In this document: piece by piece, positions 6,062 through 12,985 of the stretch
Position numbering within the stretch: the stretch's first letter is position 1
How the letters are laid out: every line of letters begins with the position of its first letter
Source: a virus
IMG/VR virus record: IMGVR_UViG_3300020202_000019
Coordinates: 1-48,117 of that record
DNA length: 48,117 nucleotides
Direction: 5' to 3' (one strand)
Position numbers and translations under genes: made by a program
The notes under the pieces: model-generated
The model's database searches: none
What the model was told of the DNA's origin: nothing
Seen by the model: the letters and a program-made list of their open reading frames with translations, nothing else

Positions 6062-7447
6062 ATGATCAATATCCTCTCCAATGCAACAGATCTAAATCTT
6101 GCAGTCTTTGCTTCTCGTCTTGCTGAAGACTTTCAGCTTGACATAACCAAAATTCATTGTCGAAAAACTGGAAAGATTATCGGATACCGTACACAGGAGG
6201 AAATCAGCCTCCTGTCTTCTCTTTATGAAGAAGAGAAGTTAAAGGGACTTTCTAAGCATCTCAATCTTTGTGACAGCATTAGTCCAGCATATGCACATAT
6301 TCAGCCGGAAACATTGAACAAACTTGAAGACATTGATCCGGTTGGATTATTTGTCTACTATGTTAATCTTCTCACACGGCAATTCAATGAATGTGTGACC
6401 ATGAAAGGAAACAGAGTTTTCATCTCTGTTGAAAGAGAAAATCAATTCAAGAACAGTCTAGTTCTTGGTCACGCTTCTCTTCTCAATGTTACCAATCTTG
6501 AGAAGATCAAGGAATGCAATAACAAACTTCGTTGGCTTCTCACACTCAATCTTCCCAAACATAAATTCTACATGGTAGACATAACAGGTGCACTTGATTT
6601 TGTCTCACTAACTGAGAAAAACACAGTCACGAAACAAATCAATTATCTCCGTCGCAATAAAGGAATTGTCGAACAACGTACATTGAAACATGCAATTCAG
6701 TCTGCAAATGAAACTGGTAAGATTGTGGAATTTACAGTCTTCATCAGAGAAATTATTGCCCACTATCCAGATTTATATAAAGAAGATTTTGTAGCTCATT
6801 CAGATGGAAAGATTGCAAATGTCACCAATCAAATCAACCATCCTGAATTAGGTAATATTAGGAGCGGGACAAATGCTTTTTATGATCCAAAAACAAAACT
6901 AATATACAATTCAGCTGAAACAATTCCAGCAATTCTAGGTGTCACTCTCAGAGATTTCGACACTAATCCTATCATGCCACATGAACTATGCAATGAACGT
7001 GGATTAGATTGGATCATTTCCTATTTCCCCAAAGCTTTCAAGCGTTGTAAGGATCATATTGCACGGAATAAGATGCTTGGCTTCCATGAAAATGAAGGCA
7101 TTAATCGTGTCTTCACACGTGGAAATAAGACTGATGCAATCAGCAATGAATTCGCACAGTATCTGAAAGATGTTGCACAGATTGTTGCATCAAAGAAAAC
7201 CGCACGTGAATTTAATGCGACAAAGAAAGCAGTTCTTGCAGCAGAAAGAAAAGTCAAACCGCTTGATCTTTCTGGTCTTGAAGCTGCCGCAGATGCATTT
7301 CTCGCATCAAGCCTGGCTTCACAGAAATCAGATAATTCCACAGTAAAGGAAATAAAGCCCTTGACATTTGCTCTTGGGGCGAAGAAAATCGAAGATCAGA
7401 CAGAAGAGAAGAAAACTTTTATTCTCGACTTTGGAAAGAAGAACTAA
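6062..7447 (+). CDS. Hypothetical early protein (461 aa)
   Basis: A large soluble protein without a motif I can name. The central part has an ordinary globular composition. The last 70 residues are Ala/Lys-rich and apparently disordered, carrying two similar short motifs, PLTFALGAKK and TFILDFGKKN, the latter being the C-terminus. A related motif (LNLSFVLEKK) occurs in the protein at 14915. The gene lies directly upstream of the helicase, so a role in replication initiation or loading is possible but unproven. Confidence 0.75.
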   Translation: MINILSNATDLNLAVFASRLAEDFQLDITKIHCRKTGKIIGYRTQEEISLLSSLYEEEKLKGLSKHLNLCDSISPAYAHIQPETLNKLEDIDPVGLFVYYVNLLTRQFNECVTMKGNRVFISVERENQFKNSLVLGHASLLNVTNLEKIKECNNKLRWLLTLNLPKHKFYMVDITGALDFVSLTEKNTVTKQINYLRRNKGIVEQRTLKHAIQSANETGKIVEFTVFIREIIAHYPDLYKEDFVAHSDGKIANVTNQINHPELGNIRSGTNAFYDPKTKLIYNSAETIPAILGVTLRDFDTNPIMPHELCNERGLDWIISYFPKAFKRCKDHIARNKMLGFHENEGINRVFTRGNKTDAISNEFAQYLKDVAQIVASKKTAREFNATKKAVLAAERKVKPLDLSGLEAAADAFLASSLASQKSDNSTVKEIKPLTFALGAKKIEDQTEEKKTFILDFGKKN

Positions 7448-7452
7448 AGCAA

Positions 7453-7791
7453 ATGTCACAACGTCGTAATTTCACACAAGCTGGTTTTCCACTCTACAAG
7501 AAACCGCCGCGTCATAATGGAAAGATGCGGCGCTTGCAACGTCCTAGAATTACCCCTGATTTGCTTGAGGCACTTGGTAGGGAATTTCCTACTATCAAAA
7601 GAATACGACATGAATTTGTTGTTTCACACAATGCAGGTGAAACTGAAATTTCAGTTCAAGAAATCAGAGATTGGAATATTATTTTGTACTATCTTGAAAG
7701 AACCTTAGAGTTTGGTAATGCACGCGAAAAGAAAAAGACACAAGAGAAGACTGAAGCAATACCTCAACAATTCATGAAGAAAAGGAACTGA
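7453..7791 (+). CDS. Hypothetical basic protein (112 aa)
   Basis: The N-terminal 35 residues are very rich in Arg, Lys and Pro, followed by a helical domain and a basic tail ending in KKRN. This fits a nucleic-acid-binding accessory protein. It begins 5 bases after the preceding gene and ends 3 bases before the helicase start, so the three are probably one operon. No family is recognised. Confidence 0.7.
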   Translation: MSQRRNFTQAGFPLYKKPPRHNGKMRRLQRPRITPDLLEALGREFPTIKRIRHEFVVSHNAGETEISVQEIRDWNIILYYLERTLEFGNAREKKKTQEKTEAIPQQFMKKRN

Positions 7792-7794
7792 GTC

Positions 7795-10092
7795 ATGCAA
7801 TTCATCATCAAGAAAATCGAGAAGCCAACAAGTCAATCAGATAGTTCCGAGGTAATCCCTTCTTCTCCTATTCCTTCTTCTATTCTCCCCAAATCAATCT
7901 CCAAAATGACTGATTTTGCTGATGCAATGAGACAACTTCAAAAAAACAAAGAACAATCAACTATGCCTGAAGCAGAAACAAAATCTACTAATCTTCTCAT
8001 TCCCCCGTCAACCACAGATTTTGTAATTCCCAAATTAGCACCACTTTATAAGTTTAAATCTCCCACAGTTGAAAATCTCAATGGCCCGTCGCCAAGTGGT
8101 AAGGCAGCGGATTTTGGTTCCGTTATCGTAGGTTCGAGTCCTACCGGGCCAGCCACTTCTGAAAAGAAAAAATCTTTTGCAGAACTTCTTGCCGAAGCGA
8201 AGGAAAAGAAATCAAAAGAACGAACCGCAGAGCAAATCTATGGCGATGCCAAAGGAATGCTCAAGGTTCTTGGAAAGAAGGATGCAGAATTTGCGAAACA
8301 GAACACAACCCCATTTGAGCTTCCTAGGAAGCAACTCTCAGAGCTTGAAAATCGAGTTGAGGCGGAGAATAAGAAAGAGAAAATCAGCGAAGAAGAAACA
8401 CCTCAGTTCATATCTCTTCCGGATACTTTACCTTCCAGGAAGGATGATGCTGCACCGGATGACAGTCAAGCAAAAGCAATTCTGGAATTGTCGTCTGAAT
8501 ACTATGGTTGTCTTATTGGAGCGGCAGGAACTGGCAAGACTTTTACGCTTAAGAAACTTCTCAAGAAAATCGAAGAAGACATCCCCTCCTATTATATCGA
8601 AGACCCACAGACCAACACCAAATATCTCGCCCTATCTATAAGATTTCTTGCATTTACTGGGCGTGCTGTTCAACAAATGAAGCGCCAACTTCCTAGAGAA
8701 CTTCACAAATATTGTGGCACAATTCATGGTGAACTTGGTCTTCGTTATATGCCTGTGTATGAAGAATATTTCGATGAAAAAGAAAATCGTGTAAAAACAA
8801 AAATGCGTTTCGAGCCCACATATCATCGTGGCAACAAAATGCCAGCAATGTATTATTTCTTCGATGAAACTGGTATGCTTGCCTGTGATTTATGGAATAA
8901 ATTGATGGATGCAATGCCATCAGGTGCGCGAGTGTTCTTTGTTGGTGATATTAATCAGCTTCCTCCTGTCTATGGTCGAAGCGTGCTTGGTTTTGGAATG
9001 CAAAAGTGGCCAACATTTGAACTTACTACTGTCCACAGACAAGCACTTGATAATCCTATCATTGCAAATGCACACAAAATTCTTCAAGGTGTTGCTCCTC
9101 AAAATTATCCTGGCCAATTCCGTCTTGTTTCAACACTTGAACTTGCTAAATCTTTGAAGATCAAAGATCATCCTGATGGCAGCACAGCTGCACAGCAAGG
9201 TTTTCTTGCGATGATCAAGAAGATGTATGTGGAAAAATTGTTTGATCCATTCCGTGATGCAATCATCACAGCATACAATGATGGAAATTGTGGACAAAAT
9301 ACACTAAATACAATTCTCGCTCCTTACTTCAATCCTCCTGATAAATCAACAGGACAAGGAGTGCGGATTGCAATTCAAACAGGAATTGCCAGAGTTAACT
9401 ATGCTCTCGGCGATAAAGTGATGCTTCATGCAAATGACAAGCAGACAGGATTAACCAACGGTCAAACAGGAAAAATCGTTGGGATCAATGTGAATGGAAT
9501 GTATAAGAACACTGGTGAAACAGTGACACTTGCACAGCTTGAGAAACACAAAAACGTCGAAATTGATGATATCGACTTCGGAGCAAATCATGGAAAAGAT
9601 CAGGAAGCTGAAGAAGCCGAGCAAAGTAAAGAAGAAAGTGAGGCGTCTGCTAGTCAGAGACAATCGTCTCACATTGTCACTGTTGACTTTGATGGAAAAG
9701 AAGTCTCTTTCTCAACTGCTGGTCAATTTAGAAAGCTCAGTCTTGCATACGTTATCACGTGTCATAAAAGTCAAGGTGGAGAATATCCGACTGTTATCAT
9801 TCTCGCTCACTCATCGCAGCATAAACTCCTTTCGCGTGAGTGGCTCTATACTGCTGTTACTCGGGCGCAAGAACGTGTCTGCATCATTTACAATTCCCGT
9901 GGACTTATGCAGGCATTGAACACACAAAGAATTAAAGGACGCACACTTGCAGAAAAGATTCAATCCTTCCAAGAGAGCACGAAAGTGTTGCCGGGAATGG
10001 AAGACAATCAGATCCGTCCGAATCTTCCTGATAGAAAAAAATTCTCTCCGGAGTATTATCCTGCAATTGATGTAGGTGATCAGAGGAGGTAG
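7795..10092 (+). CDS. SF1B DNA helicase (Dda/RecD-like) with disordered N-terminal extension
   Basis: An ATP-driven 5'-to-3' DNA helicase of the Dda/RecD2 group, 765 residues. Visible motifs: Walker A GAAGTGKT at about 242-249; DET of motif II at about 355; GDINQLPPV of motif III at about 383; VHRQ of motif IV near 409; and CHKSQGG and TAVTRAQERV of motifs V-VI at about 655-690, the latter in a UvrD_C_2-like domain. The first 240 residues are low-complexity (Ser, Pro, Lys, Glu) and look disordered. Codons 96-121 coincide with a complete tRNA-Gln gene on the same strand. Two short similar motifs, FADAMRQLQKNK and FAELLAEAKEKK, flank that segment. Family helicases usually start near the Walker A domain, so the extension is unusual. 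An internal start after the tRNA cannot be excluded. Confidence 0.9.
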   Translation: MQFIIKKIEKPTSQSDSSEVIPSSPIPSSILPKSISKMTDFADAMRQLQKNKEQSTMPEAETKSTNLLIPPSTTDFVIPKLAPLYKFKSPTVENLNGPSPSGKAADFGSVIVGSSPTGPATSEKKKSFAELLAEAKEKKSKERTAEQIYGDAKGMLKVLGKKDAEFAKQNTTPFELPRKQLSELENRVEAENKKEKISEEETPQFISLPDTLPSRKDDAAPDDSQAKAILELSSEYYGCLIGAAGTGKTFTLKKLLKKIEEDIPSYYIEDPQTNTKYLALSIRFLAFTGRAVQQMKRQLPRELHKYCGTIHGELGLRYMPVYEEYFDEKENRVKTKMRFEPTYHRGNKMPAMYYFFDETGMLACDLWNKLMDAMPSGARVFFVGDINQLPPVYGRSVLGFGMQKWPTFELTTVHRQALDNPIIANAHKILQGVAPQNYPGQFRLVSTLELAKSLKIKDHPDGSTAAQQGFLAMIKKMYVEKLFDPFRDAIITAYNDGNCGQNTLNTILAPYFNPPDKSTGQGVRIAIQTGIARVNYALGDKVMLHANDKQTGLTNGQTGKIVGINVNGMYKNTGETVTLAQLEKHKNVEIDDIDFGANHGKDQEAEEAEQSKEESEASASQRQSSHIVTVDFDGKEVSFSTAGQFRKLSLAYVITCHKSQGGEYPTVIILAHSSQHKLLSREWLYTAVTRAQERVCIIYNSRGLMQALNTQRIKGRTLAEKIQSFQESTKVLPGMEDNQIRPNLPDRKKFSPEYYPAIDVGDQRR
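8082..8155 (+). tRNA. tRNA-Gln(UUG) with encoded CCA, inside the helicase frame
   Basis: All cloverleaf parts are present. The 7-bp acceptor stem TGGCCCG (8082-8088) and CGGGCCA (8145-8151) pair perfectly. The D stem is GCC/GGC (8091-8093, 8103-8105). The anticodon stem GCGGA/TCCGT (8107-8111, 8119-8123) has one G-U. Its loop TTTTGGT has anticodon TTG at 8114-8116. The T stem GTAGG/CCTAC (8128-8132, 8140-8144) has loop TTCGAGT, and discriminator G is followed by CCA (8152-8155). It decodes CAA and, by wobble, CAG. A weak -10-like TATAAG lies at 8047-8052 without a good -35, so the RNA would mostly have to be cut from the helicase mRNA. Confidence 0.9.
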
Positions 10093-12273: not shown

Positions 12274-12402
12274 ATGAAACTTAGTACAGTAGATAATATC
12301 ATGTTTTTCTGTGGAGCATTTATCATGTTCAGTTTTGCAATATTACTTTTAGCTATTGCCCGCCATATTTATATGTGCGGCTTCATATCTGTTTGTTCTT
12401 AA
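12274..12402 (+). CDS. Small membrane peptide (42 aa)
   Basis: The ATG at 12274 follows AAAGGGAC at a suitable distance and opens a 42-codon frame. One hydrophobic helix (about residues 10-28, GAFIMFSFAILLLAIA) is followed by a Cys-containing tail. It starts 1 base after the previous stop and fills the gap before the NYN-domain gene. Confidence 0.55.
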   Translation: MKLSTVDNIMFFCGAFIMFSFAILLLAIARHIYMCGFISVCS

Positions 12403-12424
12403 AGAAGAGAAAGGATCAAGTATC

Positions 12425-12985
12425 ATGCTTTACAACGACGAGCGAACTGTTGTTCTCATTGATGGCAGCAACATCTTCCATCAATTGAAGCAAGTTGGGT
12501 TGAAAATTGATTGGAAAGGCTTCAGGAATTATATGTATGAATATGCGAAAGTTATTCGTATAGTCTATTATACTGCTGTCCATGAAGATAAAGATACTGG
12601 ACATCAGTCTCTCAGAAAGTTGCTTGATTGGCTTACTTTCAACGGATTTGATATCCGTGAAAAGGAAGCTCGTAGCTTCACCGATCTACAAGGACGTACT
12701 TTCCGTAAAGGAAATGTAGATGTTGAGATTGCTGTTGATATCATGCGCTATGCAACAAATGCTCGCGCAGACAACATCATTCTTATGAGTGGTGATGGTG
12801 ATTTCAGTTATGCGCTTGAGCACGCAAAAGTCAATGGTGCAAGAATTGGAATTATTGGTATCAGAAAGAGTGGTGGAGTTGCAGAACAGTTGAGGAAAAC
12901 TGCGGATTATATGCTTGATTTGCAAGAGATGGATGTTTCGTGGATTATGCCAGTCACGGAAACAACTTCTGCACCAGGTCAGTGA
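12425..12985 (+). CDS. NYN-domain (LabA/DUF88-like) putative ribonuclease
   Basis: A 186-residue PIN-like NYN domain protein. The conserved acidic residues are visible: Asp13 with the SN that follows (VLIDGSNIF), an acidic cluster in VDVEIAVDIM near residue 100, and SGDGDF near residue 120. Together they form the metal site of this nuclease family. It would cleave RNA, for example in host mRNA turnover or defence; the target is unknown. The ATG at 12425 is chosen because AAAGGA precedes it; a longer upstream extension would run through the small membrane peptide. The endolysin follows closely. Confidence 0.85.
   Translation: MLYNDERTVVLIDGSNIFHQLKQVGLKIDWKGFRNYMYEYAKVIRIVYYTAVHEDKDTGHQSLRKLLDWLTFNGFDIREKEARSFTDLQGRTFRKGNVDVEIAVDIMRYATNARADNIILMSGDGDFSYALEHAKVNGARIGIIGIRKSGGVAEQLRKTADYMLDLQEMDVSWIMPVTETTSAPGQ

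Follow-up and report, generated by a model that had tools for sequence, protein, structure and literature searches.

A complete tRNA-Gln(UUG) gene lies in frame, and on the same strand, inside the coding sequence of a phage helicase, and, judged by codon usage and motif content, the helicase frame is truly coding on both flanks of the tRNA, with no restart of translation between them. The stretch of DNA that was analysed (the window) comprises 48,117 nucleotides, i.e., positions 1 to 48,117 of the IMG/VR virus record IMGVR_UViG_3300020202_000019. The tRNA gene occupies 8082-8155 (+ strand, 74 nt, CCA encoded) and constitutes codons 96-121 of an open reading frame at 7795-10092 (+ strand, 765 aa). 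As reading of this arrangement, we consider it fairly probable that an intact captured tRNA-Gln is tolerated in a disordered linker of the helicase and is released from a fraction of the transcripts.

The earlier note had described 8082-8155 as a complete tRNA-Gln(UUG) with a perfect 7-bp acceptor stem, intact arms and CCA, and the tRNA tools agree with it. ARAGORN reports this gene (tRNA-Gln, anticodon TTG, + strand) as the only tRNA of the window, and the Rfam model RF00005 aligns with all arms at 62.7 bits (cutoff 29, E 2.5e-11). The acceptor stem TGGCCCG/CGGGCCA consists of Watson-Crick pairs at all seven positions, the D, anticodon and T arms are paired, including one G-U pair in the anticodon arm, and the 3' end is formed by a discriminator G followed by the encoded CCA. 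Glutamine identity depends on the acceptor-stem elements U1-A72, G2-C71 and G3-C70 and on G73, all of which are present together with the CCA. When aligned with eight tRNA-Gln genes of phages and bacteria, each of the 20 stem pairs is kept (180 of 180 cells paired), and double changes are seen at eight of them, a level reached in none of 500 shuffles. The helicase mRNA segment containing the tRNA is predicted to fold no more stably than its shuffles (z -0.44), hence the case for the tRNA rests on tRNA models and not on folding energy. Between the helicase tail (7975-7985, GAAACAAAATC) and the anticodon arm of the tRNA (8110-8120, GATTTTGGTTC), there is an 11-nt inverted match of 91%, which may compete with tRNA folding in the mRNA or may have arisen by chance.

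No identical copy of this tRNA was found in the collections searched, including an exact scan of viral contigs. The base 3' of the anticodon is a G (G37), as it is in several alphaproteobacterial tRNA-Gln genes, and the nearest bacterial tRNA-Gln genes by sequence include those of Alphaproteobacteria (Hyphomicrobiaceae and Acetobacteraceae MAGs); Ignavibacteria, Caldithrix and Dependentiae fit the pattern too. Direct repeats that could represent an insertion footprint were not found around 8082-8155. Neither was an integrase among the larger ORFs of the window that were scanned, so that an origin of the tRNA from an attachment site (attP) is without support; the tRNA is complete and not merely a 3' end. 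A search confined to sigma-70-type sites, from which the promoters of the host may differ, detected no sigma-70-like promoter from 7389 to 8828 on the + strand. The tRNA would, thus, derive from the transcript of the helicase operon.

The surrounding ORF encodes an SF1 helicase of the RecD2/Dda-like family, as evident from its match to PHROG 325 (Dda-like helicase, E 1.6e-60), the Pfam domains AAA_30 and UvrD_C_2, and a Walker A region, GAAGTGKT (8518-8541, + strand, aa 242-249), with which the conserved helicase core begins. Its ATG at 7795 is preceded by the Shine-Dalgarno-like sequence AAGGAA, and the stop of the preceding gene is located at 7791, three bases before the ATG. No open frame exceeded 194 aa when the window was Markov-randomised 20 times; the helicase frame is much longer and, as had been noted from the sequence, spans the tRNA without a stop on the same strand. 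Within it, the tRNA reads NGPSPSGKAADFGSVIVGSSPTGPAT, a peptide of 26 residues. Further downstream, at 12356-12985, the window encodes an NYN-domain nuclease (Pfam PF01936, E 1.6e-29); in one related contig (L010), a homologue of this nuclease directly follows the helicase, and no tRNA is present at that place.

An open frame through a tRNA gene is by itself weak evidence, since such frames are common: stop-free sense frames, one or more per gene, occur in 585 of the 804 distinct tRNA genes collected from viruses and in 87 of the 96 that encode tRNA-Gln. It is the coding character of the flanks that decides. A codon score trained on the remaining genes of the window yields +0.155 for the helicase frame at 7795-8080 and +0.244 at 8158-8256, compared to a 99th percentile of -0.18 for the other frames of known genes, which served as the off-frame reference; across the tRNA itself, the helicase frame is also coding-like. 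A second line of evidence is provided by a tail motif, [ST][FL]xELLAxxKxKK, learned from 97 related helicase tails. The window helicase carries this conserved motif, as SFAELLAEAKEKKSKE, at 8173-8220 (+ strand, aa 127-142), starting six residues past the tRNA, with a score of 14.95 that is matched by none of 2000 shuffles. In the N-terminal tail before the tRNA (7795-8081, + strand, aa 1-95), a weaker copy is found at aa 40-55 (score 6.77, shuffle P 0.006). Between the 3' end of the tRNA and the strong motif, the frame contains no ATG, GTG or TTG; the first in-frame start past the tRNA is the ATG at 8257-8259 (+ strand, aa 155), which lies beyond the motif and is directly abutted by AAGGA, a spacing that is unusable. 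To make the motif, a ribosome must, consequently, traverse the tRNA. The proposal of the earlier note that one RNA is both coding and structural is, therefore, borne out for its coding part, as the motif needs read-through, and the fold is intact; the structural role is a potential one.

In an AlphaFold model of the helicase, residues 52-135 are predicted to be disordered (pLDDT < 50), which would locate the tRNA peptide in a floppy linker. The peptide has no predicted secondary structure and lies between helices at both motif copies (H36-53 and H124-169).

Among roughly 100 related phage helicases examined, none contains a tRNA within its gene. These RecD2/Dda-like helicases of PHROG 325, including those of PaP2/119X, EBPR podovirus 3, Polaromonas phage Tiera and many IMG/VR contigs, are alike in their core and share with the window helicase a variable N-terminal tail with at least one copy of SFxELLAxxKxKK; the tRNA sets the window helicase apart from them. 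No close relatives were revealed when viral and genome collections were scanned with the single protein. The best identity in profile scans was about 42%, and no close relative with an empty site was among the matches. The tails of the relatives vary in length, with the onset of the motif at a median position of 8, and in the contig series L010-L089 and L212-L241, [ST][FL]xELLAxxKxKK recurs, at times in several copies; it may serve as a docking peptide. A similar sequence, MSFLEKLAKKRQ, opens gp44 of EBPR podovirus 3, the product of a neighbouring gene. Two relatives (L013:1814-4810 and L017:2122-4764) possess a long extra N-terminal part, with about 330-450 aa ahead of Walker A, which apparently stems from the fusion of the helicase with an upstream gene. 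One candidate that seemed alignable through the N-terminal tail (L213) was rejected, because its score of 45 is within the range of the shuffles (mean 41). As to whether the extension was built around the tRNA, as the earlier note had considered, the evidence is divided: the weak motif copy at aa 40-55 suggests that the tail was coding 5' of the tRNA before the tRNA arrived; against this stands that most relatives start near the motif.

Among the surveyed viral contigs that carry a tRNA-Gln gene, one convincing parallel emerged, located on contig IMGVR_UViG_3300037784_000034 (L132; the same contig as L209). There, a gene for a HerA-like ATPase (316-2028, - strand) contains an in-frame tRNA-Gln in the stretch that connects the ATPase core to a C-terminal domain. 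As in the window helicase, the tRNA is 74 nt long, on the same strand as the gene, in the same codon phase and in an interdomain linker, with coding sequence on both sides. The two cases differ in that the genes are unrelated and the L132 tRNA has a discriminator A and another acceptor stem; on sequence grounds, the L132 case is independent of that in the window. Coding on the 3' side is supported by a tRNA-free HerA-like homologue (L211), whose C-terminal domain is collinear: when only the two sequences were searched against each other, the segment 3' of the tRNA matched the C-terminal part of this homologue with a phmmer domain E of 5.8e-5, and no start codon occurs behind the tRNA until within this related segment. 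In an AlphaFold model of the ATPase, which is of low confidence, the tRNA peptide is unstructured.

The other long ORFs over tRNAs in phages and alphaproteobacteria appeared to be spurious or wrongly extended; hence, the arrangement is rare. In the Xanthomonas phages Langgrundblatt1 and Pfeifenkraut and in contig L174, the gene appears to start 3' of the tRNA, and the upstream part of the ORF is a wrong extension, which overlaps a gene on the opposite strand in both annotated Xanthomonas phage genomes. Their annotated CDSs (L002:1343-2560 and L003:1343-1984) reach back over an unannotated tRNA-Gln, and the true start is probably the ATG of MNDAAAI or MNDATPV right behind it. Contigs L133 and L160 contain small chance ORFs over tRNA clusters, and in L096, the frame over the tRNA is either a wrong extension or due to chance. 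Annotated overlaps in FLC9, S-PM2 and a Roseovarius phage concern small ORFs at or over tRNAs, those of S-PM2 and the Roseovarius phage being chance ORFs over clusters. In 385 alphaproteobacterial genomes, 174 of which contain a match to the tRNA peptide, twelve regions with long frames were examined; where a long frame covers the tRNA-Gln, either the DNA is GC-rich and the frame looks spurious, or the real start follows the tRNA.

According to the explanation we favour, a tRNA-Gln(UUG) would have been acquired from a bacterial host, possibly an alphaproteobacterium in view of the resemblance of the anticodon arm with its G37, and the encoded peptide of 26 residues would be tolerated in the disordered N-terminal linker. 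Having no promoter of its own, the tRNA would be excised from a fraction of the helicase-operon transcripts, with the 5' end presumably cut by host RNase P and the 3' end generated by an endonuclease or by exonuclease trimming. On one and the same RNA, RNase P would be in competition with the ribosomes. Excision would destroy the respective message, while translation of unprocessed transcripts would supply the helicase; as excision severs the message, each transcript would yield either a tRNA or a helicase, not both. The likely benefit would be extra Gln-tRNA for phage translation or the replacement of a host tRNA lost in infection, and the cost of lost messages would be low because the helicase is needed in modest amounts. 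A more far-reaching version, in which an authentic tRNA is excised from a dual-use RNA in opposition to translation, the supply of tRNA is coupled to helicase synthesis and different phage lineages have converged on tRNA-Gln in linkers, is in our view doubtful.

Of the competing readings, the one that survives best, although we regard it as unlikely, takes the tRNA to be now nothing but coding sequence, i.e., a peptide insert from a capture recent enough to have kept its fold, with translating ribosomes and missing processing signals blocking its release. The fully open frame, the coding flanks and the lack of a dedicated promoter-like site fit such a relic, and none of the relatives is close enough to reveal selection on the tRNA since its insertion. 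However, the arms, the anticodon loop, the discriminator G and the CCA are intact, and the acceptor stem is fully paired even though the tRNA differs in sequence from all relatives found; further, the same type of tRNA is embedded in another phage gene (L132).

A regulatory switch, in which tRNA folding and RNase P cleavage oppose the ribosomes so that helicase output and tRNA-Gln supply are mutually controlled, appears rather improbable. Its attraction is geometric: since the only good start lies 5' of the tRNA, release of the tRNA breaks the message behind this start, which forces a conflict, and the internal ATG 8257 could give rise to a shorter helicase with the whole core. Beyond geometry, support is lacking. 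AAGGA abuts this ATG without spacing, the embedded tRNA is absent in all other relatives examined, and glutamine accounts for 5 of the 95 residues ahead of the tRNA, versus 5.5% in the whole protein; this lack of Gln-codon enrichment leaves a Gln-sensing leader unsupported.

It is very unlikely that the gene model is wrong, with the helicase starting 3' of an intergenic tRNA and the first 95 codons being fortuitous or belonging to a separate frame. This situation seemingly applies to Langgrundblatt1, Pfeifenkraut and L174, and the relatives mostly start near the motif, which in the window lies just 3' of the tRNA. A helicase start downstream of 8155, which the earlier note had named as the alternative, is nevertheless disfavoured: no start codon is available from 8155 to the motif, the next one at 8257 deletes it, 7795-8080 shows clear in-frame codon bias and a second motif copy, and the ATG with its Shine-Dalgarno-like site follows the stop of the preceding gene after three bases. 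Finally, the window is a metagenome contig from IMG/VR, but an assembly artefact joining a phage contig across the tRNA of another genome is hardly credible, given that the flanks are parts of a single helicase gene and share its frame and a similar codon usage, the tRNA is identical to none found in the collections searched, and an independent phage (L132) has the same arrangement.

In annotation practice, a coding sequence is normally held to exclude a tRNA on its strand, and vice versa, whereas here two unrelated phage genes provide evidence of coding on each side of an intact tRNA. If release of the helicase tRNA takes place, every tRNA made would cost the phage one message for a core replication protein; if it does not, the gene would show a whole tRNA turning into protein sequence. 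Under either reading, automatic rules that drop the tRNA or the CDS would hide such cases.

Phage-borne tRNAs are known, and like them, the tRNA of the window is intact, with anticodon, CCA and a host-like sequence. Septimatrevirus phages, for example Guyu, and Xanthomonas phages likewise possess single tRNA-Gln(UUG) genes. The known phage tRNAs are, however, intergenic or precede the true start of the next gene, while that of the window is traversed by the reading frame of a core replication protein. In the open-access titles and abstracts searched, no phage gene was described as running in frame across an intact tRNA, which constitutes weak negative evidence that such a placement has not been described. 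The Rickettsia palindromic elements, which are repeated, degenerate, structured-RNA-like sequences, are inserted in frame into protein genes and translated. The tRNA of the window resembles them in being in frame and read as protein sequence, but differs from them as a single intact tRNA gene for which no repeat family was seen.
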